From IMG/VR virus record IMGVR_UViG_3300024475_000182, positions 1-31,120 of that record: 31,120 bases of DNA; one strand, 5' to 3'. Shown in pieces: positions 4,681-31,120 of this stretch. Numbering within the stretch: the first letter of the stretch is position 1; every line of letters begins with the position of its first letter. Source of the stretch: a virus. Under the pieces are notes generated by a model. The model worked only from the letters and a program-made list of their open reading frames with translations, had not been told where the DNA came from and did not search any database. Both the position numbers and the translations under genes were made by a program.

Positions 4681-5271
4681 ATGACTAAGAATGAGTTATT
4701 AGCAGAGCTTTACAAGAGCCACAAAAAGTGGGTTGGATTGGCTGTTAAGTTTGTAGGCTCTAATATGTTTGCTGAGGATTTAGTACAAGAAGCATATTTA
4801 AAAATACACAGGTCTTTAAAAGACGTTAATAAGATTTTAAACGAAGATAACGGAATACGATTCGGTTACTTCTACAGTACTTTGTTTAGTGTTTGTATTG
4901 ATTATAAGAGGGTAAAAAGTAAGCAGCCTCTCGTTGAGTATGATGAGGTTGTTTACTCTTACCAAGTTTTAGAAGCTTTTGACATTAAAGAAAACTATGC
5001 CTTCCAGAACTTAATGGATAGTATCGACAAGGAGATAAAGCAATGGCATAGGTACGATATAATGTTTACGGACATTTACTACAAGACAGATATATCTCTA
5101 AGAGGTCTAGAAAAAGAAAGCAAGTTTATAGATGAGAATGGTAATCAGTACAAAGGCATAAGCCTAACTTCACTATACAACACATCTAAGAACTGCAAGA
5201 GAAGACTAAGAGAAAAGTTTGATGAAGATGCTCAAGATTACTTTAACGGAGACTACGACAAATTATTATAA
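4681..5271 (+). CDS. Sigma-70-like RNA polymerase sigma factor (phage-encoded)
   Basis: 196 aa. The N-terminal part resembles sigma region 2, with AEDLVQEAYLKIHR at 31-44 preceded by a helix (WVGLAVKFVG). The C-terminal part (about 138-178) looks like region 4 helix-turn-helix (ISLRGLEKES, ISLTSLYNTSKNCKRRLREKF) ending in a DYFNGDYDKLL tail. It would steer host RNA polymerase to phage promoters, plausibly late genes. No anti-sigma partner is visible. It sits in the middle of the early/replication block and is followed two bases later by the next gene. A DNA-binding regulator with a sigma-like fold is the alternative. Confidence 0.7.
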   Translation: MTKNELLAELYKSHKKWVGLAVKFVGSNMFAEDLVQEAYLKIHRSLKDVNKILNEDNGIRFGYFYSTLFSVCIDYKRVKSKQPLVEYDEVVYSYQVLEAFDIKENYAFQNLMDSIDKEIKQWHRYDIMFTDIYYKTDISLRGLEKESKFIDENGNQYKGISLTSLYNTSKNCKRRLREKFDEDAQDYFNGDYDKLL

Positions 5272-6216: not shown

Positions 6217-6987
6217 ATGAAAAATATAAAACTGCTAAACGGAGATGAGTTCAAAGTCTCTGATATTATACCTAAGATGTATGATGATTCTTTTTACTAT
6301 GGCTACTTAGGTCAACACGCATTATCATCTTCTTCCTGCAAGAAATTAATAGAGTCTCCTAAAGCATACGCAACATCACTCACTGAAGGTTCTCCAGACA
6401 GTCAAGCACTTAGAGATGGTAGACTAACACACTTATGTGTACTAGAACCACATAGACTTGATGAGTTTACATTTGTAGATGGAACTAAAGCCAGTAAGAG
6501 TTTTAAGTTAACAGCAGAAGAGTTAGGTAAAGATTTGGTTTATACCAATCTAGAACTTAACAAGGCACAGAAGATAGCTGAAGCTGTATTGGCTAATGAA
6601 GAAGCTGCTGCTTTACTAAGTGGATGTGAGTTTGAGATACCTGCAATAGGAGAGTTTATGGGATTACCATTTAGAGGTAAGGCAGATGCAAAGAAAGGAA
6701 CAACTATCATAGACTTAAAGACTACAGCTAACATACAAGACTTTGAGTACTCAGCTAAGAAATATAGTTATGACTTACAGGCTGCTTTGTATCTAGACTT
6801 GTTTGATGCAGATGACTTTATATTCCTAGTAGTAGACAAGAGAACGTTAGATGTTGGAGTCTATACTATTACAGCAGGATTTGTAGATAGTGGACTACAG
6901 AAGCTACAGGTGGCTACAGACGCTTATAAGAATTATATTATGAGTGACTACGATTTAGAACAGTATACATTTTACGGAGAATTGTAG
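6217..6987 (+). CDS. RecE/exonuclease VIII-like PD-(D/E)XK exonuclease
   Basis: 256 aa. The pattern fits the phage RecE-type nuclease family (DUF3799-like). It has YHxLS-like LSSSSCKKL near 36-44, G-R-L-T-H-L-C-V-L-E-P with His72, F-R-G-K-A-D with Asp157, TTIIDLKTT with Asp166 and Lys168, then Y-D-L-Q-A-A-L-Y with Gln188. These are the metal and catalytic positions of the fold. The enzyme would resect double-strand ends to give single strands for the ERF annealer, the classic exonuclease/annealase pair. Here the two genes are 3.4 kb apart instead of adjacent. Confidence 0.8.
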   Translation: MKNIKLLNGDEFKVSDIIPKMYDDSFYYGYLGQHALSSSSCKKLIESPKAYATSLTEGSPDSQALRDGRLTHLCVLEPHRLDEFTFVDGTKASKSFKLTAEELGKDLVYTNLELNKAQKIAEAVLANEEAAALLSGCEFEIPAIGEFMGLPFRGKADAKKGTTIIDLKTTANIQDFEYSAKKYSYDLQAALYLDLFDADDFIFLVVDKRTLDVGVYTITAGFVDSGLQKLQVATDAYKNYIMSDYDLEQYTFYGEL

Positions 6988-7207: not shown

Positions 7208-7421
7208 TTATTACAAGACAAACAACGAGGCTCAGAGTCATTGCTTTAAAAAAGGGTATGTAATATACCCAGAGGCATTTGAAGGTAGCTGGAGAGTATC
7301 AATAGAGCTAGGACATAGGAAGCATACATATCCAGAGTTATTGTCGCTTACAGAGGCTTATATTAAAATATGGAAAGAATACGAAAAAATACAAAACAGA
7401 GATAACAATGACAAAACGTAG
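7179..7421 (+). CDS. Hypothetical protein, 80 aa
   Basis: Starts with the basic MAKKKKTS inside the preceding gene and overlaps the next gene by 14 bases. It contains a G-Y-V-I-Y-P-E-A-F segment, W-R-V-S-I-E-L and a helical C-terminus. The alternating strands and helix suggest a small alpha/beta domain. Similar short proteins occur in Bacteroidota phages as I recall; function unknown. Confidence 0.55.
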   Translation: MAKKKKTSFNYYKTNNEAQSHCFKKGYVIYPEAFEGSWRVSIELGHRKHTYPELLSLTEAYIKIWKEYEKIQNRDNNDKT

Positions 7422-8003: not shown

Positions 8004-8375
8004 ATGGCTAAATCAAATGAGATTAAACCTACTGATGGTAGGAAGTATAACAAAAGGAAGAAAGGTCAGTTAGATGTTGTTAAACCTACTACAGCAGCTA
8101 TAAACAAAGCTAAGAGAGAAAGGATGAAGGAGTTCGGAGTCAAAGCCATTAAAAAGGTGTTTGGTTCTGAACAAGACTTCTGGATGAGTCTAGCAGAAGA
8201 GGCTAAGAAAAACCATAACGATAGAAAACTATTACTAGAGTATGTCTATGGGAAACCTAAAGATGGGTTTGGTAATGCTACACAGAAATCAGCAACACCT
8301 GTCATAAATTTCTATGGACACCAACCTCCTACACAAGAAGATATTATAGATGTAACACCAGAAGATGAAGAATAG
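8004..8375 (+). CDS. terS: Probable terminase small subunit
   Basis: 123 aa, immediately upstream of and overlapping the large subunit by 11 bases. The basic N-terminus (KYNKRKKGQLDVVKP) is followed by a helical region. LLLEYVYGKPKD (72-83) is a segment typical of small DNA-binding phage proteins in the terminase small position. An acidic tail (DVTPEDEE) follows. It would recognise phage DNA and stimulate the packaging motor. Assignment rests mainly on position and size. Confidence 0.6.
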   Translation: MAKSNEIKPTDGRKYNKRKKGQLDVVKPTTAAINKAKRERMKEFGVKAIKKVFGSEQDFWMSLAEEAKKNHNDRKLLLEYVYGKPKDGFGNATQKSATPVINFYGHQPPTQEDIIDVTPEDEE

Positions 8376-9579
8376 CATAAACTTACACGATAAGTACATA
8401 CCTTTATTTAAAAGTAAGACAAGATATAATGTTATTACTGGAGGTAGGGGTAGCGGTAAGTCTTTTGGTATAAACGTATTCCTACTAAACCTTACATACG
8501 AAAGTGGACACAAGATATTGTTTACTCGTTATACAATGGCATCAGCCAATACATCTATTATACCAGAATTTGTAGAGAAAATTGATATGATGGGAGTAAA
8601 TGCTCACTTTAGGATAACTAAGGATGAGATAACTAACCTACAGACAGGTTCTTCCATTATATTTAAGGGTATAAGGACATCTAGTGGTAATCAGACAGCT
8701 GCACTCAAGTCTTTAAACGGAATTACAACGTTTGTAGTCGATGAAGCAGAGGAACTTGATGATGAAGGTACATTTGACAAGATAGACTTCTCTATAAGGT
8801 CTCTAAACAAGCAAAACAGGGTTATTTTGATACTAAACCCAACTACAAAGGAGCATTGGATATACCAAAGGTTCTTTTTAGGTAATATTGTTGATGATGG
8901 TTACAATGGAACTAAAGGAGACACAACTTACATCCATACAACCTATAAAGATAATAAAGATAACCTATCGGATTCCTTTATGGCTAGAATACTAGATATG
9001 AAAGCTAAAAGACCAGATAAATACCAACACCAGATACTAGGAGGATGGTTAGCTAAGGCAGAAGGAACAATTATAAGAAATTGGAAAGTTGGAGACTACA
9101 TACAGACAGAAAAGACCATTTATGGACAGGATTTTGGGTTCTCTGAAGACCCTACAACACTTGTAAAGATATCTGTAGATGATTTTAACAATAGAGTCTA
9201 TGTAAAGGAGATTTATGGTAAAACAGGACTTTCTACTTCAGATATAGCAAATATGAATAGAGCTGAATGTGGCTTAGACTTGATAGTTTGTGACTCATCT
9301 GAACCTAGACTTATAAAGGAGCTAAAGAAGAAAGGATTGAACATACAACCTGCTGTAAAGAAAAGTGGTAGTATACTATCTGGTATAGCACTTATGCAGG
9401 ACTATGAGATAATAGTAGACCCTAGAAGTAAAGGTGTTATAAAGGAGTTTAATAACTATGTATGGCACGAGAAAGGTGTAAGACCAATCGATAAGTTTAA
9501 TCACTTCTGTGATGCTATAAGATATGCCTTGATGAGATTAGCTACAAGTAAGAACAAAGGAATCTACACAATAAGATAG
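8365..9579 (+). CDS. terL: Terminase large subunit (ATPase and nuclease)
   Basis: 404 aa, a typical length for PBSX-type large terminases. ATPase domain: Walker A GGRGSGKS (26-33), Walker B TFVVDEAE (123-130) and a coupling motif LILNPTT (156-162). Nuclease domain, RNase H fold: Asp258 in GQDFGF, Asp312 in VCDSSEP and Asp385 in HFCDAIRY. It cuts concatemeric DNA and pumps it into the prohead through the portal. The portal gene is far away at 28.6 kb. A terminator and the first repeat pair begin directly after its stop. Confidence 0.93.
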   Translation: MKNSINLHDKYIPLFKSKTRYNVITGGRGSGKSFGINVFLLNLTYESGHKILFTRYTMASANTSIIPEFVEKIDMMGVNAHFRITKDEITNLQTGSSIIFKGIRTSSGNQTAALKSLNGITTFVVDEAEELDDEGTFDKIDFSIRSLNKQNRVILILNPTTKEHWIYQRFFLGNIVDDGYNGTKGDTTYIHTTYKDNKDNLSDSFMARILDMKAKRPDKYQHQILGGWLAKAEGTIIRNWKVGDYIQTEKTIYGQDFGFSEDPTTLVKISVDDFNNRVYVKEIYGKTGLSTSDIANMNRAECGLDLIVCDSSEPRLIKELKKKGLNIQPAVKKSGSILSGIALMQDYEIIVDPRSKGVIKEFNNYVWHEKGVRPIDKFNHFCDAIRYALMRLATSKNKGIYTIR

Positions 9580-9582
9580 AGC

Positions 9583-9682
9583 GTTTAATATAAAGGGGTG
9601 CGTTTATTATGAAGGGGTAACAATTGATTTTGTTGCTCCTTTCTCTGTTTAATATGATGGGCTATGTTTAATATGAGGGGCT
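9583..9682 (+). repeat. Direct-repeat array A: two pairs of a 17-bp repeat
   Basis: Four direct copies of GTTTAATATGAGGGGCT or close variants at 9583-9599, 9602-9618, 9647-9663 and 9666-9682. Within each pair the copies start exactly 19 bp apart; the two pairs start 45 bp apart (second copy to third). The first pair is the most divergent (ends GGGGT). The second copy overlaps the 5' arm of the terminator at 9612-9641. The same architecture is found at 11392-11492. Confidence 0.85.
9612..9641 (+). terminator. Intrinsic terminator after terL
   Basis: AAGGGGTAACAA (9612-9623) pairs with TTGTTGCTCCTT (9630-9641) through 12 pairs including two G-T wobbles, with loop TTGATT, followed by the T-rich TCTCTGTTT. 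It ends the long early/packaging operon. Its 5' arm is shared with the second repeat copy of array A. Confidence 0.65.
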
Positions 9683-9857
9683 TCAATTAATTGCTGGTTA
9701 TACTAAAAAATAATAGTAGATTTATTTTGTTATGTGAAAATATTGTTGTAGACGTATGCATGTGTTCCTTTATTAAGTTATGCTACAAATCTAGAATAGT
9801 ATCAAAAGGTATCAAATCATAAAAAAAGTTAAATTGCAAAGTTTTTTATATTTTTTG
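9683..9857 (+). other. Non-coding leader region A with conserved TGCATGTG block
   Basis: No gene found. It holds AAAATAATAGTAGATT (about 9707-9722) and TGCATGTG (9757-9764), both also present in the same order before promoter B (11536-11552 and 11578-11585). The distance from TGCATGTG to the -7 box is similar at the two loci (123 and 116 bases). Candidate regulator-binding block; also possibly a remnant of a duplication. Confidence 0.55.
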
Positions 9858-9887
9858 TTGTGTAATTAAAAAAAAGAGTTATATTTG
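9858..9887 (+). promoter_or_regulatory. Promoter A (Bacteroidota type)
   Basis: -33 TTG (9858-9860), 19-base spacer, -7 TATATTTG (9880-9887). The -33 is preceded by a TTTTTTGTTG stretch shared with promoter B. The predicted start is about 30 bases before ATG 9924. Confidence 0.75.
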
Positions 9888-9923
9888 CTTCAGAAACAAA
9901 TAATAATAACTTAAAACAATAAT

Positions 9924-10169
9924 ATGAAAGAACAAATTAAAGTAAACTTACAAAGCGAAAACGGAGTATATTTAACCTATAAATTATACCATACAATTAA
10001 TGGCTATACAAATATTTATTTGATTAATGCAAAAATATGTGGTGTAAATGATTGTAATGAAAACGCTTTGTATATTTCAGCTATCGGATGCAGTGCATTA
10101 ACTAATAACGAAGAAACTTTAATGGATGAATTTGCAATCGAATTATTAGAAAACTATCTACAAAAATAA
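9924..10169 (+). CDS. Hypothetical protein, 81 aa (first gene of cassette A)
   Basis: First gene after promoter A. A compact, probably soluble protein: strand-rich first half (IKVNLQSENGVYLTYKLYH), three cysteines (C39, C44, C56), and a C-terminal acidic helix (LMDEFAIELLENYLQK). No recognised family. The ATG follows an AAACAATAAT leader. Likely an accessory protein, given its place in a small-gene cassette with its own promoter. Confidence 0.6.
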   Translation: MKEQIKVNLQSENGVYLTYKLYHTINGYTNIYLINAKICGVNDCNENALYISAIGCSALTNNEETLMDEFAIELLENYLQK

Positions 10170-10214
10170 AAACAATATAAATATAAGTACAGAGAACAAT
10201 TAAATAAATAAGAT

Positions 10215-10367
10215 ATGAAAGTAAGTCAATTAATAAACGAACTGCAAAAGCTACCTAAAGATTTAGATGTAATTTTGTGGAGTGAACACCTAGAAGATAA
10301 CTTTAATATTTCATCGATTGAAGTAGATAGTATAAATAAAACAGAAGCAATAATTATAGTAGACTAA
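10215..10367 (+). CDS. Hypothetical protein, 50 aa
   Basis: Starts MKVSQLINELQKLPKDLDVI, a pattern I associate with very small phage proteins that open with K-V-S-x-L-I-x-x-L-x-x-L-P-x-D. The rest is acidic with a final beta strand (EAIIIVD). It has the AATAAGATATG leader repeated at 10375 and 11326. Function unknown. Confidence 0.55.
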   Translation: MKVSQLINELQKLPKDLDVILWSEHLEDNFNISSIEVDSINKTEAIIIVD

Positions 10368-10374
10368 ATAAGAT

Positions 10375-10710
10375 ATGAGTACAATAGATAATAACAGATT
10401 GATAGCAGAATTTATGGGATTAGAAACTCCAGACGGATGCTATTTCGAGCATCTAACTAAAAAAGGAGAAAGAAAATCATCTCACTTTTTGTTATTAGAA
10501 TATCATATATCTTGGGACTGGCTAATGCCCGTAGTTGAGAAGATTGAAAGTGATGAAAGGTATGATGTTGACATATTACAATATGGCACAAGAATTACTG
10601 ATAATCAAAAAGAGATAGTTAACAATATTGCTGACATATCATTTGATAAAAAGATTGAGCATACATACGATGCAGTAGTAGAATTTATTAAAAACTTTAA
10701 AATTAAATAA
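10375..10710 (+). CDS. Phage ABA-sandwich-domain-like protein, 111 aa
   Basis: Begins NNRLIAEFMGLETPDG and contains the stretch EYHISWDWLMPVVEKIE (about 42-58), the hallmark of the small alpha-beta-alpha sandwich domain common in phage accessory proteins. The C-terminal helix (YDAVVEFIKNF) completes the fold. The role is not established; these proteins typically accumulate in accessory regions. It lies 7 bases after the previous stop with an AATAAGATATG leader. Confidence 0.6.
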   Translation: MSTIDNNRLIAEFMGLETPDGCYFEHLTKKGERKSSHFLLLEYHISWDWLMPVVEKIESDERYDVDILQYGTRITDNQKEIVNNIADISFDKKIEHTYDAVVEFIKNFKIK

Positions 10711-10711
10711 C

Positions 10712-10918
10712 ATGATGATAGAAGAATTATTAAGTGAGCCAATAGTGTTTGTTTACTCGGAAACTGATGACGCATCAGCGACATACGAATTTAATTACGA
10801 AGAAATAAAACAAGTTATTGAGGCACACAATGAAGATTTTGACACGAACTACAAAACCATCACAGAATTTAATGATGGCGAAGAGTATAGAAAAATAGAT
10901 ATTAACCTACCATTTTAA
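10712..10918 (+). CDS. Small acidic hypothetical protein, 68 aa
   Basis: Starts at ATGATG (10712; the second Met at 10715 is equally possible) one base after the preceding stop. Strongly acidic (ETDDASATYEFNYEEI, HNEDFDTNY). Could mimic nucleic acid or bind a basic partner, but this is speculation from charge alone. It ends INLPF. Unrecognised. Confidence 0.55.
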   Translation: MMIEELLSEPIVFVYSETDDASATYEFNYEEIKQVIEAHNEDFDTNYKTITEFNDGEEYRKIDINLPF

Positions 10919-10928
10919 ACAATATAAT

Positions 10929-11132
10929 ATGAACATAAACATTTTGAAAGCAGTACAGATTTACACTACTAAAAAAGAATTTATAGTGTACACAACTAAA
11001 GACAATAAGATTGATAAGATGATACTTACAAATGATTTAACTAGACATCGTAAAAAGTTCGGTAGAGATAGTAGATTTTTATTGACTGATACATTAAAAA
11101 AACAATTAAGAATAATTAATATAACTTTATAA
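10929..11132 (+). CDS. Hypothetical protein, 67 aa; paralogue of the 13249 gene
   Basis: Basic, small protein. TKKEFIVYTT, then NKI, then LTNDLTRHRKKF. The same series (TKKTFICFN, NKI, LTNDLIRFRSRY) is present in the gene at 13249-13455 in cassette B, with the same length and position relative to the cassette end. This is direct evidence that the cassettes share a gene by duplication or parallel acquisition. The strand-strand-helix pattern with R/K-rich helix suggests nucleic-acid binding. No known family. Confidence 0.6.
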   Translation: MNINILKAVQIYTTKKEFIVYTTKDNKIDKMILTNDLTRHRKKFGRDSRFLLTDTLKKQLRIINITL

Positions 11133-11133
11133 T

Positions 11134-11322
11134 ATGAATTGGATAATAGAAGACGAATTCGGAAACCATTGTTTCCCACAAAAATCATTTGAAGATTATG
11201 AGGATGGTTGGGAATTTTTATATCAAACATTTCCAGTAATATATTACGAAGATGGAACACAAGATGACCAAGAAGAAGAATTATCCTCATACTTTGTAGT
11301 AACTAACGAACTAAATAAATAA
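11134..11322 (+). CDS. Hypothetical acidic protein, 62 aa
   Basis: Contains WIIEDEFGNHCF, EDGWEFLYQTFP and a D/E-rich region before SSYFVV. This resembles small phage proteins with a W-x-I-x-D-x-x-G start, an E-x-A/G-W-x-F-L centre and a Y-x-V-V end; their role is unknown. It starts one base after the previous stop with a TTTATAAT leader. Confidence 0.55.
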   Translation: MNWIIEDEFGNHCFPQKSFEDYEDGWEFLYQTFPVIYYEDGTQDDQEEELSSYFVVTNELNK

Positions 11323-11325
11323 GAT

Positions 11326-11352
11326 ATGAGATTACCCGAGATAGAATTTTAA
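11326..11352 (+). other. Eight-codon reading frame before the cassette A terminator
   Basis: ATG with the full AATAAGATATG leader opens only eight codons (MRLPEIEF) and ends 8 bases before a strong terminator. It may be the 5' remnant of a gene lost when the terminator or repeat array was joined here. It could also be a chance frame. Confidence 0.25.
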
Positions 11353-11360
11353 AATAAATT

Positions 11361-11385
11361 AAGCCACTTTAACGAGTGGCTTTTT
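11361..11385 (+). terminator. Intrinsic terminator ending cassette A
   Basis: AAGCCACT (11361-11368) pairs perfectly with AGTGGCTT (11375-11382), loop TTAACG, and a T-run to 11385. It stands 6 bases before repeat array B, mirroring the terminator/repeat association at the end of terL. Confidence 0.85.
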
Positions 11386-11391
11386 ATTTCT

Positions 11392-11492
11392 GTTTAATAT
11401 GAGGGGCTTTGTTTAATATGAGGGGCTATTGTTAATGTAAGTAGATAATTATATCTGTTTAACAAGAGGGGCTTTGTTTAACAAGAGGGGCT
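11392..11492 (+). repeat. Direct-repeat array B: two pairs of a 17-bp repeat
   Basis: Copies at 11392-11408, 11411-11427 (both GTTTAATATGAGGGGCT) and 11457-11473, 11476-11492 (both GTTTAACAAGAGGGGCT). Each pair is in exact 19-bp register, and the pairs are 46 bp apart (second copy to third), the same layout as array A. GTTTAA and GGGGCT are invariant in this array; the middle five bases differ between the two pairs but not within a pair. Confidence 0.9.
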
Positions 11493-11671
11493 CTTTATAA
11501 TCATTGCACATATTATTTTGACTCATTATAAATAAGAAAATAATTTGGTAGATTAAAATATTTTTTGTATTCATGTGTGCATGTGCTTTTATACCTTACA
11601 AAGCTATATTTTATAAAATACCTCAAGCGCAAAAAAACATCAATTTTTGTAACATTTTTTAATTTTTTTTG
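11493..11671 (+). other. Non-coding leader region B with conserved TGCATGTG block
   Basis: No gene found. AAAATAATTTGGTAGATT at about 11536-11553 and TGCATGTG at 11578-11585 match leader region A in order and rough spacing. The TGCATGTG block here is extended to CATGTGTGCATGTGC, which contains CATGTG twice. Then comes a T-rich run leading into promoter B. Confidence 0.55.
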
Positions 11672-11701
11672 TTGTTTATTCATTATAAAATATTACATTT
11701 G
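11672..11701 (+). promoter_or_regulatory. Promoter B (Bacteroidota type)
   Basis: -33 TTG (11672-11674), 19 bases, -7 TACATTTG (11694-11701). The preceding TTTTTTTTGTTG is shared with promoter A and the spacer length is identical. Drives the cassette B genes from 11752. Confidence 0.75.
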
Positions 11702-11751
11702 CTCAAGGGTAAAAAGTTTACCTACATTAAAAAACACTTAAAATACTGAAA

Positions 11752-11949
11752 ATGAGTAACTTAAAAGAAACAAAAACAGAAAAATCAAATTTAACTTTAG
11801 CTTTCGAGCAAGTAAAAAAACTTAATTTAGGGCTAACACTAGAGCAGTATATTGATTTAAATGATGTCCTTTATACCTTGTCAATTAATCAATTTTCTAA
11901 GGGGATGAAAGAAGCAAACGAAATTCATAATAAATATAATAACCTATAA
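11752..11949 (+). CDS. Hypothetical protein, 65 aa (first gene of cassette B)
   Basis: Hydrophilic Lys/Glu-rich N-terminus followed by two helices (LAFEQVKKLNLGLTLEQYIDL, LYTLSINQFSKGMKEANEIH). Looks like a small all-helical protein. No recognised family. About 50 bases downstream of promoter B's -7 box. Confidence 0.6.
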   Translation: MSNLKETKTEKSNLTLAFEQVKKLNLGLTLEQYIDLNDVLYTLSINQFSKGMKEANEIHNKYNNL

Positions 11950-11961
11950 AAAATTAATATC

Positions 11962-12204
11962 ATGAAAAAAAGTAAAACAATACTAGATTTTGTAGCAGTT
12001 GATAAAGTGATAATGTATTCTTTTAACTATGAGTATAATTTTATTGAAAATGCTTTCGGTGAATATTTAGTGGACCACTTGAGAGCTAAATTTTCTAACT
12101 ACTGCAAAAGGTTTGGAAATTCTCAAACTGCATTCATGTACTTGTATACGGACTTGAGCAGCGACAACAAACAATTATTAATTAACTATATTTTAAACAA
12201 GTAA
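11962..12204 (+). CDS. Hypothetical protein, 80 aa
   Basis: A helical, aromatic-rich protein (VIMYSFNYEYNFIENAFGEYL, AFMYLYTDLSSDNKQLL) with basic ends. No motif recognised. The leader AATTAATATC before ATG is shared with 12209 and 13249, suggesting a common translation signal within this cassette. Confidence 0.55.
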   Translation: MKKSKTILDFVAVDKVIMYSFNYEYNFIENAFGEYLVDHLRAKFSNYCKRFGNSQTAFMYLYTDLSSDNKQLLINYILNK

Positions 12205-12208
12205 TATC

Positions 12209-12340
12209 ATGCAAGTATATTTTAAAAATATTAAATCTATATTGAAAATAAATAAGTCCGGGAGATGGCAAGGCAACATCAATGTTTATAAATACATATT
12301 GAAATACACAATAAAATACATAATAAAACAAACAAAATGA
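12209..12340 (+). CDS. Small basic protein, 43 aa
   Basis: Strongly Lys/Ile/Tyr-rich (MQVYFKNIKSILKINK, YKYILKYTIKYIIKQTK), net very basic, with a single SGRWQG turn. It overlaps the next gene by ATGA. May be a real basic peptide, or simply an open frame in AT-rich DNA; the ATGA overlap and the shared leader support translation. Confidence 0.4.
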   Translation: MQVYFKNIKSILKINKSGRWQGNINVYKYILKYTIKYIIKQTK

Positions 12341-12516
12341 GAAAAGACGTATTAATACTAGAAATTAGCAACATATTAAATGACACTGGGGCTTATGCAA
12401 AAATCGAAAAACTATTGCAAAAATATAATTTAGATATTGAGCAAACTATTTACGATTATGATTTTGAGAATAATTTAGTAAAGCCAATAATTGAACAATA
12501 CCAAGACAATAACTAA
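12337..12516 (+). CDS. Hypothetical acidic protein, 59 aa
   Basis: ATGA overlap with the upstream gene. All-helical look: ILEISNILNDTG, KIEKLLQKYNLDIEQTIYDYDFE. Acidic, opposite in charge to its immediate upstream neighbour, so a small antitoxin-like or partner role can be imagined but has no other support. Confidence 0.5.
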   Translation: MRKDVLILEISNILNDTGAYAKIEKLLQKYNLDIEQTIYDYDFENNLVKPIIEQYQDNN

Positions 12517-12527
12517 AAAGTAATAAT

Positions 12528-12614
12528 ATGAAAACAATTAAACAAGTATTAAAAAAAGCAAATCAAATCTTAAAAGAATGCGCAAAGGGTGCATCTTATG
12601 CTATTAACAATTAA
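12528..12614 (+). CDS. Mini-protein, 28 aa
   Basis: ATG with the AGTAATAAT leader and a short amphipathic basic helix (MKTIKQVLKKANQILKECAKG). Fits exactly between two other genes. Too short for any assignment. Confidence 0.35.
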   Translation: MKTIKQVLKKANQILKECAKGASYAINN

Positions 12615-12625
12615 AACTTTATACA

Positions 12626-13237
12626 ATGAATTTACTAACACAAAACACAAAAATAAAACTAACGGGAATAGAATTAAAAAAGAAAGTTTTTAACTTTAGT
12701 ATACCCGCTTTTAAAACTGCTTTAGGAAAAATTACTTGCCCTTTTGCCGATAGTTGTGTAAAATTTTGTTATGCTCAAAAAGGAAATTATAAAAGGTTTC
12801 CAAGCGTCCGTAATTCTATGGAGCAAAAATATACACTAACTAAACAAGATAATTTTATACAATTAATGAATAAGGAAATAATAAAAAAGAAGCCCGACTT
12901 TATTCGTGTACATGATAGTGGGGACTATTACAGCCCTAAATATTTAAATAAGTGGTTAACTATTGCAATAGAAAATCCAGCAGTAAAATTCTATAGTTAT
13001 ACTAATAGTATTAAGTTTATAAAGGACCTTAAAAATATCCCGATAAACTTTGACTTTATATTTTCCGATAGTGGTAAGCAAGTTAATTTAATAGATAAAA
13101 ACAAAGATAGACACACAAAGATTTTTAAGAGTTCCAGCGAACTAAAAAAAGAGGGTTATACTGACGCATCTAAAATAGATTTGTATAGTACAAAGTGGTA
13201 CAACAAAACAAACAAAGTAGGTTTAATATTTCACTAA
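12626..13237 (+). CDS. GP88-like phage protein (Cys-cluster family), 203 aa
   Basis: Resembles the family named after mycobacteriophage gene product 88. Shared elements are a Cys cluster CPFADSCVKFCYAQKG (C38, C44, C48) and RVHDSGDYYS (94-103). These are followed by a W-L-x-I-A helix and KFYSYTNSI (121-129). The conserved cysteines suggest a metal or iron-sulfur site, and the HDSGD motif looks catalytic, but no reaction is established to my knowledge. By far the largest gene of cassette B, so it is probably the cassette's main product. The short genes before it may assist it. Confidence 0.6.
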   Translation: MNLLTQNTKIKLTGIELKKKVFNFSIPAFKTALGKITCPFADSCVKFCYAQKGNYKRFPSVRNSMEQKYTLTKQDNFIQLMNKEIIKKKPDFIRVHDSGDYYSPKYLNKWLTIAIENPAVKFYSYTNSIKFIKDLKNIPINFDFIFSDSGKQVNLIDKNKDRHTKIFKSSSELKKEGYTDASKIDLYSTKWYNKTNKVGLIFH

Positions 13238-13248
13238 AAAATAACATC

Positions 13249-13455
13249 ATGACAAACAATTATAAAATAAGTTTAACACTATTATTAAAACTTAGCAAGA
13301 CTAAAAAAACATTCATCTGTTTTAATGTAGAAAATAATAAAATAAAAGAGTTCGTTTTAACTAATGACTTAATTCGTTTTAGAAGTAGATACAATACTTT
13401 TAAATTAGTTGAAATAATTAAACCAAAATTGAACAAATTAACTATTGAAATATAA
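13249..13455 (+). CDS. Hypothetical protein, 68 aa; paralogue of the 10929 gene
   Basis: ATG 13249 (leader ATAACATC) is chosen over an upstream in-frame alternative inside the GP88-like gene. TKKTFICFN, NKI and LTNDLIRFRSRY align without gaps to the 10929 product (TKKEFIVYT, NKI, LTNDLTRHRKKF). Basic, probably a small strand-plus-helix domain; unknown function. It lies second to last in cassette B, comparable to the paralogue's position near the end of cassette A. Confidence 0.6.
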   Translation: MTNNYKISLTLLLKLSKTKKTFICFNVENNKIKEFVLTNDLIRFRSRYNTFKLVEIIKPKLNKLTIEI

Positions 13456-13459
13456 AACC

Positions 13460-13624
13460 ATGAAAACACAATTTTATTTTTATTACAAAGAAGGAGGGAC
13501 AAAACATACTGCAGGGATAAGAGACTGCAAATATCCAAAGCGTACAAAAATCTATAAACAACTATTCAATAGTTTAGAACGGGGTTTTGTCGAGGTAATT
13601 GGATGGGGTCCAATAGATGAATAA
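13460..13624 (+). CDS. Hypothetical protein, 54 aa
   Basis: Last gene of cassette B. It starts with an aromatic strand (KTQFYFYYKEGG) and has a basic middle (DCKYPKRTKIYKQLF). It ends VEVIGWGPIDE. Strand-helix-strand pattern; no known family. The start lies 5 bases after the preceding stop, and it ends 24 bases before a terminator. Confidence 0.5.
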   Translation: MKTQFYFYYKEGGTKHTAGIRDCKYPKRTKIYKQLFNSLERGFVEVIGWGPIDE

Positions 13625-13647
13625 ATACTAACATATCAATATAAATT

Positions 13648-13674
13648 AAGCTACTTTTTTAGTAGCTTTTTTTT
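13648..13674 (+). terminator. Intrinsic terminator ending cassette B
   Basis: AAGCTACT (13648-13655) and AGTAGCTT (13661-13668) pair perfectly around a TTTTT loop and run into eight T (13667-13674). Ends rightward transcription ahead of the convergent minus operon. Confidence 0.85.
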
Positions 13675-13976
13675 ATGCAATAATTTTGTAAGTTATTGAG
13701 GATTAAATATAGTAGGGTAATGTGGGGTAAACCAGCCAAATTAAGACGTTTAAGACACTTTTATACCAAAATAATATCAATATACTAGTTATTTATTAGG
13801 ATAGCTTAAAATAGACGTAAATCCTCTTTTATGGGAAGTAAGATGCCCAATGTTATGAATTCAACCAAATATCTTTTCAATAAAAACTGGATATTCGAAT
13901 CTGAAAAAATAGAAAAAAGTAGTTTACTATAGGGTTGATTTTCCATTTTGTAAAGTACTGATTTACAACACTTGTC
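13675..13976. other. Gene-free spacer between convergent operons
   Basis: About 300 bases with no convincing gene. The best frame is 33 codons from ATG 13831 with no good leader. A perfect inverted repeat TTGTAAA/TTTACAA (13948-13954 and 13962-13968) lies near the right end. A stretch at about 13700-13735 (GGATTAAATATAGTAGGGT) vaguely recalls the 17-bp repeat but is too divergent to call. This may be a decayed third cassette front or a recombination joint. Confidence 0.4.
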
Positions 13977-14017
13977 AAAAAAAAGTTGTCGCTACTTTTA
14001 CAAAACATGCGACACTT
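13977..14017 (-). terminator. Intrinsic terminator of the minus-strand operon
   Basis: Read on the minus strand, AAGTGTCGC (14017-14009) pairs with GCGACAACTT (13992-13983) with one bulged A, then eight T. It begins two bases after the stop of the last minus gene (14019). Confidence 0.7.
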
Positions 14018-14018
14018 T

Positions 14019-14426
14019 TCATTTTCTGTGTCTTTCTACTGTTCTTATTGTTACTCCTAGTATGTCTGATATATCTTTATTGTTTATATCTGGCTTTAGG
14101 TTTAGTATTTCTTGTATCTTTTGTTTAGTCTTTATATTAGCTACTCTACTTATCTCCTTTATACGGATATCTATCTCTAGACTTCTTCTCATATCTTCTA
14201 GGTACTGTGAATATCTGTTCTTATATTCTTTATTCCACTTATAGACGTTTACGTGTATCCAAGACATAGGTTTGTTATAGTTAGTAAAGTTAGCTACATA
14301 GTGTCTATTCCAATTACCATCTAATTTGGACATCCATACAAACTCATAACCATCGTATACTACTTTATGGTTAGTTATGTCTTTTAGTTGTTTAAGGTGG
14401 TTATCTGACCAACTTGTCTTATACAT
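14019..14426 (-). CDS. Helix-turn-helix DNA-binding protein, 135 aa
   Basis: The C-terminus (113-134) reads as a helix-turn-helix: INNKDISDILGVTIRTVERH, in the style of LuxR- or resolvase-type recognition helices. The N-terminal 75 residues are aromatic-rich (YEFVWMSKLDGNWNRHYV, WIHVNVYKWN) and unassigned. The start overlaps the methyltransferase 3' end by 8 bases, so they are coupled. Probably regulates phage transcription, perhaps this operon; alternatively an HNH-like or homing protein that lost its nuclease, for which I see no motif. Confidence 0.6.
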   Translation of the reverse strand: MYKTSWSDNHLKQLKDITNHKVVYDGYEFVWMSKLDGNWNRHYVANFTNYNKPMSWIHVNVYKWNKEYKNRYSQYLEDMRRSLEIDIRIKEISRVANIKTKQKIQEILNLKPDINNKDISDILGVTIRTVERHRK

Positions 14427-15060
14427 CTACAGTCCATTGTTTAGCCATTGCTTCTGCAATACCTTGAAAAGTTTTACTTCTTAACGTTCTTCTTTCTCCA
14501 GGAGTTTTAGCTTGTTTAAGTGCATCAAAATACCATTTAGGCTGTTTCTTCTTTACACCTTTCTTAGACATAAACTCAATAAACTCTCCCTTTTCTACTA
14601 TATTAGTAGGTTCTAGTTTTGGTAGGTTTTTAAGCCATAAGCAAGTGCTTTTTTGTGCTTTATCTCCAAACATCCAAGGTTGTACTATTTGCTCTGGTTT
14701 TCTTATCTGACTACTTATAACACTTATGGGATTTTCTATTGCTATTTTATCTATTGGTGCATCCATAAGCCTCTGAACAAAATCTAATGCTTCTGCCTGG
14801 CTATTCCACCTGTCTTCATTCTTGCTACCGTCTTTGTTGTATAACCATCTTGCACCACTAACTGCCAGGAAAGTACAAGGTGGGTGTGCTATCATCATAT
14901 CCCAACCTTTTTCTATAACTTCAAATACATCTTGTTGGTAATGCCATTCTGAATGACCTCCACTACAAGGCAATAAATCACAACTAAATGCTTCGTGTCC
15001 TAATTTTCTTACTTCTTTTGTTACTGCTTGACTTTCTTCACGAGCTACTAATATTCTCAT
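14419..15060 (-). CDS. Small DNA cytosine-5 methyltransferase-like protein, 213 aa
   Basis: Motifs: VAREESQAVTKEVRKLGH (5-22) replacing the usual SAM-binding motif I, C-D-L-L-P-C-S-G-G-H (27-36), the catalytic HPPCT with Cys62, and AIENP (107-111, motif VI ENV-like). KSTCLWL (137-143) and a closing RSKTFQGIAEAMAKQW (194-209) follow. These fit C5-cytosine methyltransferases, though it is much shorter than stand-alone enzymes and seems to lack a target recognition domain. It would protect phage DNA from host restriction. Starting at ATG 15060 avoids overlap with the upstream gene; an earlier in-frame ATG at 15114 would overlap it. Confidence 0.7.
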   Translation of the reverse strand: MRILVAREESQAVTKEVRKLGHEAFSCDLLPCSGGHSEWHYQQDVFEVIEKGWDMMIAHPPCTFLAVSGARWLYNKDGSKNEDRWNSQAEALDFVQRLMDAPIDKIAIENPISVISSQIRKPEQIVQPWMFGDKAQKSTCLWLKNLPKLEPTNIVEKGEFIEFMSKKGVKKKQPKWYFDALKQAKTPGERRTLRSKTFQGIAEAMAKQWTVDV

Positions 15061-15088
15061 AATTTCCTTGTTTATACATCTATAGTTA

Positions 15089-15262
15089 TTAAAATGCCTT
15101 GTATTGATTAACATTCATACTTTCGTAGTATTTAATATTCTTTTTCTTTTCTCTGATTAAAGAATTTATCTCTGCTCTTTGACTAAGTAGTTTTAAATGT
15201 TCTTGATTAAGAGTATTTATAGCTGAATCTATTTCTTGTTGAGTGTATGTTTTGTGTTCCAT
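15089..15262 (-). CDS. Small helical hypothetical protein, 57 aa
   Basis: A charged helix-rich protein (IDSAINTLNQEHLKLLSQRAEINSLIREKKK, shown only to illustrate its heptads at about 11-41) likely to form a coiled coil, with a polar tail MNVNQYKAF. No family recognised. Sits between two identical 20-bp direct repeats (15071-15090 and 15273-15292), which suggests it was inserted, or can be deleted, by recombination. Confidence 0.5.
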   Translation of the reverse strand: MEHKTYTQQEIDSAINTLNQEHLKLLSQRAEINSLIREKKKNIKYYESMNVNQYKAF

Positions 15263-15273
15263 AATTTATTTAT

Positions 15274-15420
15274 TTATACATCTATAGTTATTGTTTCTGT
15301 ATCATTCTCCGAGTCTCTTATGAGTTTAAGAATGGAATTGTATCCTTCCATCTCGGAGATATAATTGTTCTTTATGCAACCTATGATGTGCATTAATCTA
15401 AGTTTATACTTATCAGACAT
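15274..15420 (-). CDS. Hypothetical protein, 48 aa
   Basis: MSDKYKLRLMHIIGCIKNN, then a helix (MEGYNSILKLIRDSEND) and a Thr/Ile-rich end. Its ATG shares a base with the preceding stop (TAATG). Unrecognised small early-type protein. Confidence 0.5.
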   Translation of the reverse strand: MSDKYKLRLMHIIGCIKNNYISEMEGYNSILKLIRDSENDTETITIDV

Positions 15421-15566
15421 TATAGACCTGTAGTTATGCCATTATCCATAACTTGTATCATATGTCTGAAGGTGCTTTTTTCTTGTTCTCCTGTTACGTC
15501 TACTCCATTGATGAAGAATCTGTAGTGGTCTTTCTTATCTGTTGGTATTATTTCAAATTTATTCAT
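15420..15566 (-). CDS. Hypothetical protein, 48 aa
   Basis: Strand-rich opening (NKFEIIPTDKKDHYRFFINGVDV) then a helix (TFRHMIQVMDNG). Joined by TAATG to the next gene and separated by two bases from the upstream one. No known family; the F-x-I-x-G-x-D-V pattern resembles a small beta-hairpin domain. Confidence 0.5.
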   Translation of the reverse strand: MNKFEIIPTDKKDHYRFFINGVDVTGEQEKSTFRHMIQVMDNGITTGL

Positions 15567-15568
15567 AA

Positions 15569-15736
15569 TTATCTTTCTTCGTTAAAGGTTAAAAATTCGT
15601 TCATTATTTTCTCTGGACAAACTATACCACTTGATTTCAAGTTAAGTTTAAATATAATAATGTCTATAGATGTGCAAAATTGAAAAAACTTTATTTGATT
15701 TCTTCTGTTAAATATAAATTGATAATCATACTTCAT
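15569..15736 (-). CDS. Hypothetical protein, 55 aa
   Basis: Basic N-terminus (YDYQFIFNRRNQIKFFQF) and an acidic helical end (EKIMNEFLTFNEER). An AGAGG sequence directly abuts the ATG, one of the few Shine-Dalgarno-like leaders here, but it is too close to be normal. Overlaps the upstream gene by 11 bases. Unrecognised. Confidence 0.45.
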   Translation of the reverse strand: MKYDYQFIFNRRNQIKFFQFCTSIDIIIFKLNLKSSGIVCPEKIMNEFLTFNEER

Positions 15737-15881
15737 CCTCTTTTGGTATTAAGGTTTCTAATTGTTTTTCTAGTTCTTCTACTTTTCGGTTAAGTTTGTT
15801 AGTGGCAACGTATATTGACGTTATAGCACTTTCTATAATCTTAAACCTCTCTTTGGTTGTATGCTTCTTCTTTAAACTCAT
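15726..15881 (-). CDS. Small coiled-coil protein, 51 aa
   Basis: Basic MSLKKKHTTKERF start followed by a long helix with heptads (ESAITSIYVATNKLNRKVEELEKQLETL is one continuous helix, about 17-44). Likely an oligomerising accessory protein. Its end overlaps the next gene; its start is 3 bases from the small membrane-protein gene's stop. Confidence 0.5.
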   Translation of the reverse strand: MSLKKKHTTKERFKIIESAITSIYVATNKLNRKVEELEKQLETLIPKEDEV

Positions 15882-15883
15882 AA

Positions 15884-15988
15884 TTAATATAATAGTTTTA
15901 ATACGATGCCATAAATTAGCATCCCTACTGTTAGTGAAAATGCTAGAAATAGTATTATTCCTTCTAGCACATTTGGTTTATTTTTCAT
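15884..15988 (-). CDS. Tiny single-pass membrane protein, 34 aa
   Basis: MKNKPNVLEG then a 20-residue hydrophobic segment (IILFLAFSLTVGMLIYGIVL) and a KLLY end. ATGA overlap with the upstream gene. One-helix phage membrane peptides can be holin-like, superinfection-exclusion or membrane-anchor factors; there is no lysin next to it, so a holin call is not justified. Confidence 0.5.
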   Translation of the reverse strand: MKNKPNVLEGIILFLAFSLTVGMLIYGIVLKLLY

Positions 15989-16143
15989 AGTTCTTTGTAT
16001 TTGTCTTTTAATGATACATAGTGATAATCAGACTTACTTAGTTTTAGGTCTATTAAGTCATCCATTGCTTCCTGTCTTCTTATACAAGCAGGTAATTTGT
16101 CTATTAGTTGTTGTAGTTTCTGTATTAATTTCTTTCTGTACAT
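15985..16143 (-). CDS. Hypothetical protein, 52 aa
   Basis: Basic helical first half (YRKKLIQKLQQLIDKLPAC) and a D-L-K-L-S-K-S-D-Y-H-Y-V-S-L segment. Starts 3 bases after the DUF5664-like gene, ends in ATGA overlap with the membrane-protein gene. Unrecognised. Confidence 0.5.
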   Translation of the reverse strand: MYRKKLIQKLQQLIDKLPACIRRQEAMDDLIDLKLSKSDYHYVSLKDKYKEL

Positions 16144-16146
16144 ATC

Positions 16147-16506
16147 TTATAGTTTATTAGTTAGGTATCTTTCTAGTCCTGCTAATGCTCTCCAAGCTAC
16201 CTTTGTTAGGTGTAAAATACCATCTTCATCTACAGGATTAACTGTATGGTCTATTAAGTGCCTAGTTAGAGCATCGTATTCGTCTTTTGACTTATTCATA
16301 TCCCAATGTAGTGGTTTGTCTGGATGATGTTGGTCATTACCAGCCTTACTACACTTAGAAACCTCTTTTAAAGCATTTGGGAAGTACTTTAGTACTCCAC
16401 TAAACACAGGTATGTTTTTTCTAGCTTCAGCATTGCTTAAAACCTTCTCTACATACTTATATTGCCCATCTTCTTGCATTTCTGCCCATTTTTCTCTTGT
16501 ATTCAT
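16147..16506 (-). CDS. DUF5664 (dATP/dGTP diphosphohydrolase N-terminal-like, MazZ-type) protein, 119 aa
   Basis: The block K-Y-F-P-N-A-L-K-E-V-S (40-50), AGNDQHHPDKPLHWD (55-69), then DEYDALTRHLIDH (75-87) and DGILHLTKVAWRALAGL (95-111) is the signature of DUF5664, a MazG-like helical NTP pyrophosphohydrolase-related domain. A member in Vibrio phage phiVC8 (MazZ) hydrolyses dGTP/dATP-type nucleotides and belongs to the 2-aminoadenine pathway. No PurZ or DatZ gene is seen in this window, so a link to modified bases is not claimed; a nucleotide-pool role is more cautious. Second gene of the minus operon. Confidence 0.65.
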   Translation of the reverse strand: MNTREKWAEMQEDGQYKYVEKVLSNAEARKNIPVFSGVLKYFPNALKEVSKCSKAGNDQHHPDKPLHWDMNKSKDEYDALTRHLIDHTVNPVDEDGILHLTKVAWRALAGLERYLTNKL

Positions 16507-16507
16507 A

Positions 16508-16669
16508 CTAATTCTTTTGATATATTCTGGTTATTACTAATTGAATGATTCCAAAGTAGAAAACAATGTCTTCTTCGTAAACTTCTTCGCTTTCGAAGGG
16601 ATAATGCCTTAATCCTAGCAATAAACCCTTAAAAAACCCAATTCTTACCTCATATCTTACTAAATCCAT
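16508..16669 (-). CDS. Hypothetical protein, 53 aa (first gene of minus operon)
   Basis: MDLVRYEVRIGFFKGLLLGLRHYPFE, then an acidic patch and FYFGIIQLVITRIYQKN. The V-R-I-G-F-F-x-G-x-x-L-G-x-R-x-Y pattern resembles very small phage proteins with a shared beta-hairpin; function unknown. Its stop is one base from the DUF5664-like start. Preceded by a minus-strand promoter box. Confidence 0.5.
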   Translation of the reverse strand: MDLVRYEVRIGFFKGLLLGLRHYPFESEEVYEEDIVFYFGIIQLVITRIYQKN

Positions 16670-16698
16670 TGATTAAATTGTTAATAATTAATATTAAA

Positions 16699-16728
16699 TT
16701 GACTTTGATATTAGCAAATATAGTTTTA
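16699..16728 (+). promoter_or_regulatory. Candidate promoter for the virion operon
   Basis: TTG at 16699-16701, 19 bases, TAGTTTTA at 16721-16728 (one mismatch to TAnnTTTG). It overlaps the divergent minus -7 box, so the two promoters may compete. This could instead be a late promoter read by the phage sigma-like factor, with its own consensus. Confidence 0.35.
16715..16722 (-). promoter_or_regulatory. -7 box for the minus operon
   Basis: Minus strand TATATTTG (16722-16715), a full TAnnTTTG match, about 45 bases before ATG 16669. No clear -33 TTG at 19-20 bases, so it may depend on an activator. Confidence 0.45.
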
Positions 16729-16782
16729 TTTTATTTATTTACCTAATAAAAAGACAAAAAACATAAAAAACGTTATAAGATT

Positions 16783-17502
16783 ATGAGTAAAATAGAACTT
16801 GATATTAGTGTTCCTAAAAATTTAAGTGGTATAACTGTACAGCAGTACCAAGAATACGCTAAACTATGGGAAGACAACAAGGAAGTGGAGAATTATGAGT
16901 TTATCAACAAGAAAACACTAGAGATATTCTGTGGATTGGACTTAAAGGAGTCTTATAAGATACCAATTAACACTTTTGATAGCATATTAAGTCACATAAA
17001 TGACTGTTTTAATGAAGACAAGCCATTTATAAACAGATTTAAAATGATTAGTGCAGAAGGTGTTGCTGTAGAGTTTGGTTTTGAGCCATCTCTAGATAAA
17101 ATATCATACGGAGCATTTAAAGATGCTGAAAATTACATTGGAAACGTAAAAGACTTGCATAAATTAATGGCTGTTCTTTACAGACCTGTAATAAAAGACA
17201 TAAGCACTAAGCACCACTACAGAATAGCTGACTATGAGGGTAGTGATAAGTTCTCCGAAGTGATGAAAGATGCACCAGTTAACGTAGCATTAGGAATGAA
17301 GGTTTTTTTTTATCGTTTAGGGACAAAATTGTCGAAATATACAATGGACTCTTTAATGGAGCAGGCGAAATTAACGACCAACAAGGAAGGAAAGCAGCTT
17401 TTGGAAGAAAATGGGGAGATTATCAGTCGTTTCTATGCCTCGCACAAGACGATGTACGAAGACTTGACGAAGTCTCAAAGCTTCCATTACACCAATGTAT
17501 GA
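16783..17502 (+). CDS. Tail assembly chaperone, 0-frame product (G-like), 239 aa
   Basis: First gene of the virion operon. The 0-frame product has a strand-rich N-terminus (IELDISVPKNLSGITVQQYQEYAKL) and an L-H-K-L-M-A-V-L-Y-R-P centre (126-136). It ends in a helical C-terminus (FYRLGTKLSKYTMDSLMEQAKL). Bacteroidota phages carry proteins like this, as I recall, in the position where tailed phages encode the G/GT tail chaperones that coat the tape measure before tail polymerisation. The run of nine T at 17303-17311 is inside the gene, and a long -1 frame continues to 17579. Confidence 0.65.
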   Translation: MSKIELDISVPKNLSGITVQQYQEYAKLWEDNKEVENYEFINKKTLEIFCGLDLKESYKIPINTFDSILSHINDCFNEDKPFINRFKMISAEGVAVEFGFEPSLDKISYGAFKDAENYIGNVKDLHKLMAVLYRPVIKDISTKHHYRIADYEGSDKFSEVMKDAPVNVALGMKVFFYRLGTKLSKYTMDSLMEQAKLTTNKEGKQLLEENGEIISRFYASHKTMYEDLTKSQSFHYTNV

Positions 17503-17579: not shown

Positions 17580-18040
17580 TGGCACAAAACCAAGTTTACA
17601 ACGTACTAGACAGCTTAAAGGCACAATTATTACAGCATCCACAATGTAATACTGTTACTACAGGTAACTTATCTGATGTTGACCTAGCGAAAACAACGAT
17701 ATTTCCCTTAACACACTTAATTGTTGATACAACAACCCTAAGTTCTAAGACAATTACAATAACATTAAACGTTATTTGTATGGATATAGTCGATATAAAC
17801 AAAGATAAAGCTACAGATAACTTCTATGGTAACGACAACTCTCAAGATATCTTAAATACGCAACTAAACGTCTTAAATTACCTATTTATGCAATTAAAGA
17901 GGGGAGACTTATGGGATATTAGGCTAATTACCGATGAGGATATGAATGCAACTCCTTTTATGGAGAAATATGAGAATATGTTAGCTGGATGGGAAGGTTC
18001 TATACAAATACAATTACCTAACGAGATAAATATCTGTTAA
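17579..18040 (+). CDS. Tail terminator-like structural protein, 153 aa
   Basis: A Bacteroidota phage protein type: FPLTHLIVDTTTLSSKTITITLNVICMDIVDINKD (shown in parts: FPLTHLIVDT, ITLNVICMDIVD) and NSQDILNTQLNVLNYL. LAGWEGSIQIQLPNEINIC lies at the end. The size, strand-helix pattern and position after the chaperone and before a gp10-like gene fit a tail terminator or tail-completion protein. No direct motif proves it. TAATG couplings at both ends. Confidence 0.5.
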   Translation: MAQNQVYNVLDSLKAQLLQHPQCNTVTTGNLSDVDLAKTTIFPLTHLIVDTTTLSSKTITITLNVICMDIVDINKDKATDNFYGNDNSQDILNTQLNVLNYLFMQLKRGDLWDIRLITDEDMNATPFMEKYENMLAGWEGSIQIQLPNEINIC

Positions 18041-31016: not shown

Positions 31017-31120
31017 TTCTTGGTGGGGTAACACAATAGATACTGCATCTTCTATTGGAACATCAACTGAAATGATACAAGGTCAGTTTAATATGAATGA
31101 CAGACAAGAAGTTGAAGCAG
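30994..31120 (+). CDS. Structural protein, partial (C-terminus outside window)
   Basis: ATG 30994 opens MANEIYDSSWWGNTIDTASS and runs off the right edge after 42 codons. An I-Y-x-x-S-W-W-G-N start is familiar from neck or tail proteins of Bacteroidota phages in this location. Function not assigned. Confidence 0.5.
   Translation, partial: MANEIYDSSWWGNTIDTASSIGTSTEMIQGQFNMNDRQEVEA

Follow-up and report, generated by a model that had tools for sequence, protein, structure and literature searches.

How small accessory genes come and go in phages that carry no integrase is, in our judgement, a standing question, and one locus raises it in compact form: why is the gene for the terminase large subunit (terL) of a phage followed by an array of short direct repeats, with a matching array at the edge of the next small-gene cassette? 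The locus lies in the virus record IMGVR_UViG_3300024475_000182 of IMG/VR; the window is the whole stretch analysed, positions 1 to 31,120 of that record, which is itself 31,120 bases long. Comparative analysis supports the view that its two arrays, termed A and B, form a real element that is conserved, lies mostly between genes and is associated with terL and with the borders of small-gene cassettes. What the comparisons establish is a repeat unit, its association with terL, its position at cassette borders, and inserted genes that end at or next to units or at the end of terL. The arrays are considered, at about even odds (a probability near 0.5), to be the repeat part of a docking module similar to the promoter early stem-loops (PeSLs) of T4-type phages, the units of which would provide short homology for cassette exchange. 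Small genes that are present in one phage and absent from its near twin suggest a simple, integrase-free form of swapping; the question is testable here, since occupied and empty sites of nearly the same sequence exist, the repeat is defined and its address behind terL is constant, and the repeat offers a cheap tag for accessory cassettes in uncultivated phages.

Eight repeats in two arrays

A pattern search for GTTTAATATGAGGGGCT, allowing up to three mismatches, finds exactly eight copies in the window, all on the plus strand, with starts at 9583, 9602, 9647, 9666, 11392, 11411, 11457 and 11476; the shuffled window yields a mean of 0.08 copies and a maximum of one. Array A consists of units at 9583–9599, 9602–9618, 9647–9663 and 9666–9682 (+), of which the first begins three bases after the terL stop codon and the second ends where the stem of a terminator-like hairpin begins; terL itself (8365–9579, +) is the left neighbour of the array. 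Array B consists of units at 11392–11408, 11411–11427, 11457–11473 and 11476–11492 (+). The offset is 19 nt within all four pairs, and the distance from the second repeat to the third is 45 nt in array A and 46 nt in array B; the layout of eight repeats in two loci described in an earlier reading made from the letters alone (the sequence-only reading) is confirmed. The two first copies of array A carry three mismatches each, and no gene lies between the units of array A or of array B in the window.

The sequence-only reading had also claimed that array B is homogenised pair by pair. In the window both pairs are indeed uniform internally and different from each other; this pattern is absent from all nine relatives in which array B is complete (L007, L010–L016 and L018), some of which may be of the same genotype. 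The first pair is mixed (an ACAAG type followed by an ATATG type) in all nine, and the second has the same middle bases in L007 and L014 and is mixed in the other seven.

The repeat unit and its spacing

Across 645 units in 139 arrays the unit is an 11-nt core, GTTTAAYATNA, followed by an arm that is G-rich in 518 units, C-rich in 89 and of another composition in 38; this count also admits a few core variants. Cores in 150 non-redundant loci are armed in 703 cases and armless in 89, compared with 0–2 armed and 20–32 armless matches for four permuted control motifs, and the combination of core and arm is therefore not a chance motif. A second, related repeat of the CCGTCTTTGTTATGRAGG type is present in some arrays. 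A lone armless copy of the core lies at 31086–31096, near the right end of the record.

Spacing was measured in 139 distinct arrays of at least three units, which give 506 steps. Steps of 19 nt are the commonest (240 of 506) and the others range overall from 15 to 60 nt, including 17 (48 steps), 23 (31), 25 (26), 43 (24), 45 (19), 26 (14) and 58 nt (13); the constant spacing that an iteron or a regular operator array would have was not found in this set. A set of mini-genes, in which the ATG of one unit would be read in frame to the TAA of the next at 19-nt spacing, was considered and rejected, as spacings of 17 and 23 nt break the frame and cores of the ATT type lack the ATG. A G-quadruplex as common principle was rejected by reading of the arrays, as those with C-rich arms do not fit.

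The spacing bears on the possibility that a protein encoded by the phage or the host binds to the units (making them an operator, an activator site or an iteron-like element), with shuffling a by-product of conserved intergenic DNA. This explanation is rather unlikely. A conserved 11-nt core in tandem on one strand near promoter-like sites, with 19 nt as the commonest spacing, is what such sites might look like; the strict oligomer geometry proposed by the sequence-only reading does not hold across the family, since spacings vary without evident helical phase, and the arm after the core may be either G- or C-rich. Of the binders named in that reading, the helix-turn-helix (HTH) protein encoded at 14019 occurs in 13 of 27 eligible terL loci and the DnaA-like protein encoded at 7408 in 57 of 89 (tblastn, as for all later counts in eligible loci); at these frequencies both are inconstant and seem not to be obligatory, which makes them weak candidates. 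The sigma-like protein encoded at 4681 is present in 42 of 46 eligible loci, which counts in favour of the binding-site explanation. The unit also occurs inside terminators and at gene junctions elsewhere, and the window has just two cores beyond its arrays, one per strand, which excludes the unit as a general promoter or operator of this phage.

Linkage to terL and distribution among phages

The close, 19-nt-spaced pattern recovers 12 IMG/VR contigs (L007–L018). Array A has 19/45/19 spacing in all 12, which are not independent and were picked with the 19-nt pattern; array B is 19/46/19 in nine, shows the first pair alone in two and is not seen in one contig. Looser patterns recover at least 120 stretches of the G type and 53 of the C type. 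The pattern-scan set comprises 118 loci (L007–L018 and L094–L199), some on contigs that were also found through TerL; 106 of them encode TerL, at 58–99% identity over the segment. All 196 of the 19-nt unit pairs in these 106 loci lie on the TerL strand, and 195 lie at most 4.5 kb downstream of terL, within flanks of limited length that under-sample other places. The converse selection, by terL, took the best 80 of 593 loci, of which 79 were examined (L039, with a cut TerL, was left out); 75 of these extend 100 nt or more past terL, and the first 600 nt beyond the gene hold two or more cores in 72, a single core in one and, in the bases examined, none in two. The sequence-only reading had proposed a search of related phages for pairs ahead of small-gene cassettes, and related phages do carry them there.

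The repeat family was found here only in virus records: the G-type pair has no exact match in genome_contigs, and among 50,697 phage records the DNA of window array B has no match and that of the L071 array has one weak partial match (38 nt, E 0.1). The host probably belongs to the Bacteroidota, judging from the TerL relatives and the promoter type. The TerL of Nonlabens phage P12024L is 52% identical to that of the window, and its terL is directly followed by a gene matching the window open reading frame (ORF) at 16783; the region from 9.6 to 16.8 kb of the window therefore looks like an insertion relative to P12024L.

The core is present in all 22 long records, mostly on one strand. Away from terL, cores often lie at gene ends, where several are part of intrinsic terminators whose 5' arm is preceded by a core and whose loop contains a second one; a few solitary cores fall within coding sequence. 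Arrays occur at scattered places in the long linear records, and further arrays lie 1.1–3.8 kb after terL with variable genes between. At L106 5994–6029 (+) and L160 8093–8128 (reverse complement) two units stand, by eye, at an apparent frame junction, where they would supply the final codons of one gene and the opening codons of its neighbour, whose start looks like a lipoprotein signal. The 58,119-base record G017 has two ERF matches of equal score 36,951 bases apart, as if it held more than one turn of a circular map of about 37 kb.

A constant position after terL could also be that of a packaging site (pac or cos) or a replication origin lying beside the gene by chance, both of which were among the candidate roles in the sequence-only reading. 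The adjoining gene at 8004–8375 is present in 94 of 94 eligible loci; it has no family match and is a small-terminase candidate by position only. This explanation is very unlikely, since units also stand at other gene ends and inside intrinsic terminators, genes are inserted between them, and arrays recur farther from terL and at scattered places. Phage P12024L, with its related TerL, shows no armed core after terL in the half of its record that was covered (positions 18000–35652), and the GC skew keeps its sign at the arrays.

Cassette edges and genes between units

The window was compared with ten chosen near relatives. All ten match it from terL through array A; the match ends at 9907–9944 in eight and at 10183 in two. 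It resumes at 11315–11348 in nine of the nine relatives that reach array B, crossing the whole of that array as a single stretch in seven and as two overlapping pieces in L023. Between these points lies cassette 1 (9924–11322, +), the six small ORFs of which differ in content and order among the ten relatives; some cassette genes recur in a different order, as in L010. Cassette 2 (11752–13624, +) also consists of small ORFs, including one for a GP88-family protein (12626–13237). The proteins encoded at 10929–11132 in cassette 1 and 13195–13455 in cassette 2 appear by eye to be relatives of each other, as if copied.

Single genes also lie between units. In all, 20 of 120 non-redundant loci carry such genes, with 24 ORFs flanked by a unit on each side, and 23 of these ORFs are on the strand opposite to terL. 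Of the 23 leftward ORFs, 18 have the stop codon at −1 to +6 nt relative to the left unit and 20 have the start codon 9–22 nt from the right unit; a unit stands 3–22 nt ahead of the start codon in 21, and a role as leader of these genes is therefore possible. If genes between terL and the first unit are included, there are 42 gene-sized gaps in 35 loci. In L191 and L194 the gene between terL and the first unit resembles by eye an HNH homing endonuclease, and L075 holds, by eye, rightward relatives of a leftward two-gene block that is present in L171 and L129.

Occupied and empty sites

Close relatives were also compared in pairs. L020 and L019 are the cleanest pair: they are 97.1% identical up to +150 after terL, and identity resumes at 99.7% over 779 nt from position 622 of L020 and position 107 of L019, which leaves an insert of 515 nt flanked by a 44-nt repeat with two units in it. 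Aligned with L036, L020 shows breaks at these positions too (89.5% and 82.1%). L177 differs from L022 by a 207-nt insert with an 18-nt repeat inside a unit, the right flank being identical for 40 nt and then only 82–86% identical, and L171 differs from L177 by a clean insert of 264 nt between the end of terL (+10) and the first unit (94.8% and 87.2%). The match between L089 and L078 breaks at a unit end (+72) and resumes 8 nt before another unit (88.6%); that between L075 and L072 is lost at +3 and returns 10 nt ahead of the first unit (87.1%). In the pairs compared, insert ends lie at or adjoin units or the end of terL.

Single genes between repeats and empty and occupied sites would also be expected of site-specific recombination of the integron or transposon kind, and integrase-less attC clusters are reported in lytic phages, including a Polaribacter phage (PMC9892861). 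This explanation is highly improbable for the arrays studied here. Tyrosine recombinases (PF00589), serine recombinases (PF00239) and Y1 transposases (PF01797) were each found in 0 of 23 records; an integrase might be supplied by the host. The first box of attC is RYYYAAC, and 62 of 645 units begin with a sequence that fits it; pairs of RYYYAAC and GTTRRRY 40–140 nt apart number zero on either strand within the 139 arrays. The repeats at the inserts are also unequal (44 nt versus 18 nt).

The candidate recombination engine is a single-strand annealing protein of the ERF family (2282–2842, +; E 1.4e-35), which is found in 18 of 23 records and may use the units. A nuclease-like protein of the DUF3799/PDDEXK type (6217–6987, +; E 1.3e-20) has homologues in only 14 of the 70 eligible loci, and TerL identity exceeds 95% in every one of these.

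Terminator-like and promoter-like sites

Both window arrays are accompanied by sites that resemble transcription signals. A terminator-like hairpin follows terL (9611–9642, +), with 13 pairs, four of them G-C, and a T-rich 3' side; a second of nine pairs precedes array B (11361–11382, +). The stretch from 9300 to 17000 holds seven terminator-like sites, compared with 1.7 expected. Promoter-like sites were scored against the Bacteroidota consensus. The window has pattern matches for a leftward site directed back through array A (9786–9816, −) and for rightward sites ahead of cassette 1 (9853–9887, +) and cassette 2 (11667–11701, +), such that a rightward site lies about 170 nt after each array. 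Across the family, promoter-like sites occur in the 300 nt after 103 of 164 arrays, where a Markov null gives 17 (standard deviation 3.9).

Further features of these leaders were seen alongside. Alternating purine and pyrimidine runs follow directly after the array or the first promoter-like site in loci such as L033, L037 and L090, and a strict rule finds such runs in 16 of 181 modules. The leader after the second promoter-like site of L028 resembles rRNA boxA; TTGACATA is present in 6 of 181 modules. A possible boxA-like resemblance of the core itself was also considered. An AT-rich, palindrome-like TTTAGAATNATTCTAAA element follows the arrays in many loci, for example L022 and L088, and an element of this type lies within 150 nt in 75 of 181 modules under a loose rule applied with no control.

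A proposed docking module for small-gene cassettes

These features are combined here in a composite intergenic module that would run from a terminator-like hairpin through the unit array to promoter-like sites, and that appears to separate terL and successive small-gene cassettes in this phage group. The direct-repeat units are proposed to supply short stretches of identity for annealing-type recombination by Erf, which may add, remove or exchange cassettes; the terminators would insulate each cassette, and the promoter-like sites would let a new one work at once. Some units are predicted to pair with a neighbour into terminator hairpins, and a unit may act as the leader of leftward ORFs between units. 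A more specific version is tentatively proposed, and is doubtful as a whole: an integrase-free cassette platform, in which a permanent array behind terL would be the docking port, single genes would be gained and lost by Erf-type annealing, and each unit would combine homology, half of a rightward terminator and a leftward 5' leader.

Several observations weigh against the docking module. The roles of the module in expression, termination and recombination are predictions from sequence patterns, and recombination between repeats, the central step, leaves the conservation of this particular core unexplained. In L054 and L055 the 384 and 600 nt examined after terL contain no core; the alignment of L198 covers just the first part of array B; and 131 of 703 armed cores fall within ORFs that were called mechanically, in 110 cases on the other strand. 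The 24 ORFs between units represent a few gene families and near-duplicate phages rather than 24 independent events, and that of L120 looks spurious. ERF was missed in 5 of 23 records, and matches to the promoter pattern are common on the other strand too (67 of 164). By our own rule a clear terminator starts at only 61 of 813 armed cores, some of these being doubtful, and termination as the sole role of the units was rejected on this count.

Pairing between arms belongs among the same points, and is weakly supported. Adjacent G- and C-rich arms number 116, compared with 103 in shuffled arrays (standard deviation 5; 16 of 2000 shuffles equally high). The mean stem length is 4.91 versus 4.68 (standard deviation 0.12; 21 of 500 shuffles) for a G-rich arm followed by a C-rich one, and 4.85 versus 4.70 (61 of 500 shuffles) for the reverse order. 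The fold energy relative to shuffles of unit order has a mean z of −0.24, and many arrays, including those of the window, lack C-rich arms, which makes arm-to-arm pairing impossible there. A paired-arm RNA structure as the general principle was set aside on so weak a signal. A comparison of conservation between core and flank was discarded as biased, its classes having been defined by the core.

The same data speak to a post-transcriptional role, in which the unit would be conserved as RNA, acting as a leader at leftward start codons and as one half of the terminator of rightward transcripts. The start-codon distances given above fit such an element, as do terminators with the core in the loop and the leftward promoter-like site found in 13 of 17 occupied loci compared with 45 of 100 others. 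It is nevertheless quite unlikely, given that 100 of 120 loci have no ORF between units, as is also the case in the window, and that the fold signal is weak or absent. Rfam gives no match above the gathering score in six sources (87,546 bases); a permissive RNA-family search of a 2.2-kb stretch gives six matches, every one below that score.

Relation to known systems

Phage genomes are mosaic, and boundary or linker sequences between modules serve as conserved short sites of exchange. The arrays resemble linkers in placing a conserved short sequence at a module edge, and differ in that the boundary here is a multi-copy array with a conserved core. Among titles and abstracts, in a search with poor coverage of subscription journals, no paper on this repeat was found.

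The start-associated sequences (SAS) and extended SAS (ESAS) of cluster K mycobacteriophages typically lie 3–7 bp before many gene starts, on the gene strand (PMC3203893). They share with the units a short, asymmetric, phage-specific sequence at gene junctions, mostly in one orientation and absent or rare in host genomes; the units differ in clustering after terL and in their orientation, which is mostly opposed to that of the genes they enclose. The start codon lies 9–22 nt from a unit for 20 of 23 leftward ORFs, and 100 of 120 loci have no such ORF. Phage attC arrays and clusters of attC sites lacking an integrase (CALINs; PMC9892861) are similar in combining small cassettes with short recombination-associated repeats in phages in which no integrase was found; unlike them, the arrays here have no R-box pairs, shorter units and a direct-repeat duplication at the inserts.

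The PeSLs of T4-type phages are the nearest described idea. They are modules of a promoter and a stem-loop credited with gene shuffling (PMC4503421, PMC3950731; a reference entry on them stands in PMC4177764), the original papers being Arbiol et al. 2010 and Comeau et al. 2014. The arrays depart from the PeSL in having a tandem core-arm array between terminator and promoter, a tie to terL, single genes between units and a host that is probably a member of the Bacteroidota. They agree with it in the sequence pattern that brings promoter-like sites and terminator-like hairpins together in an intergenic module, and in the shuffling, among close relatives, of the genes that lie between modules.

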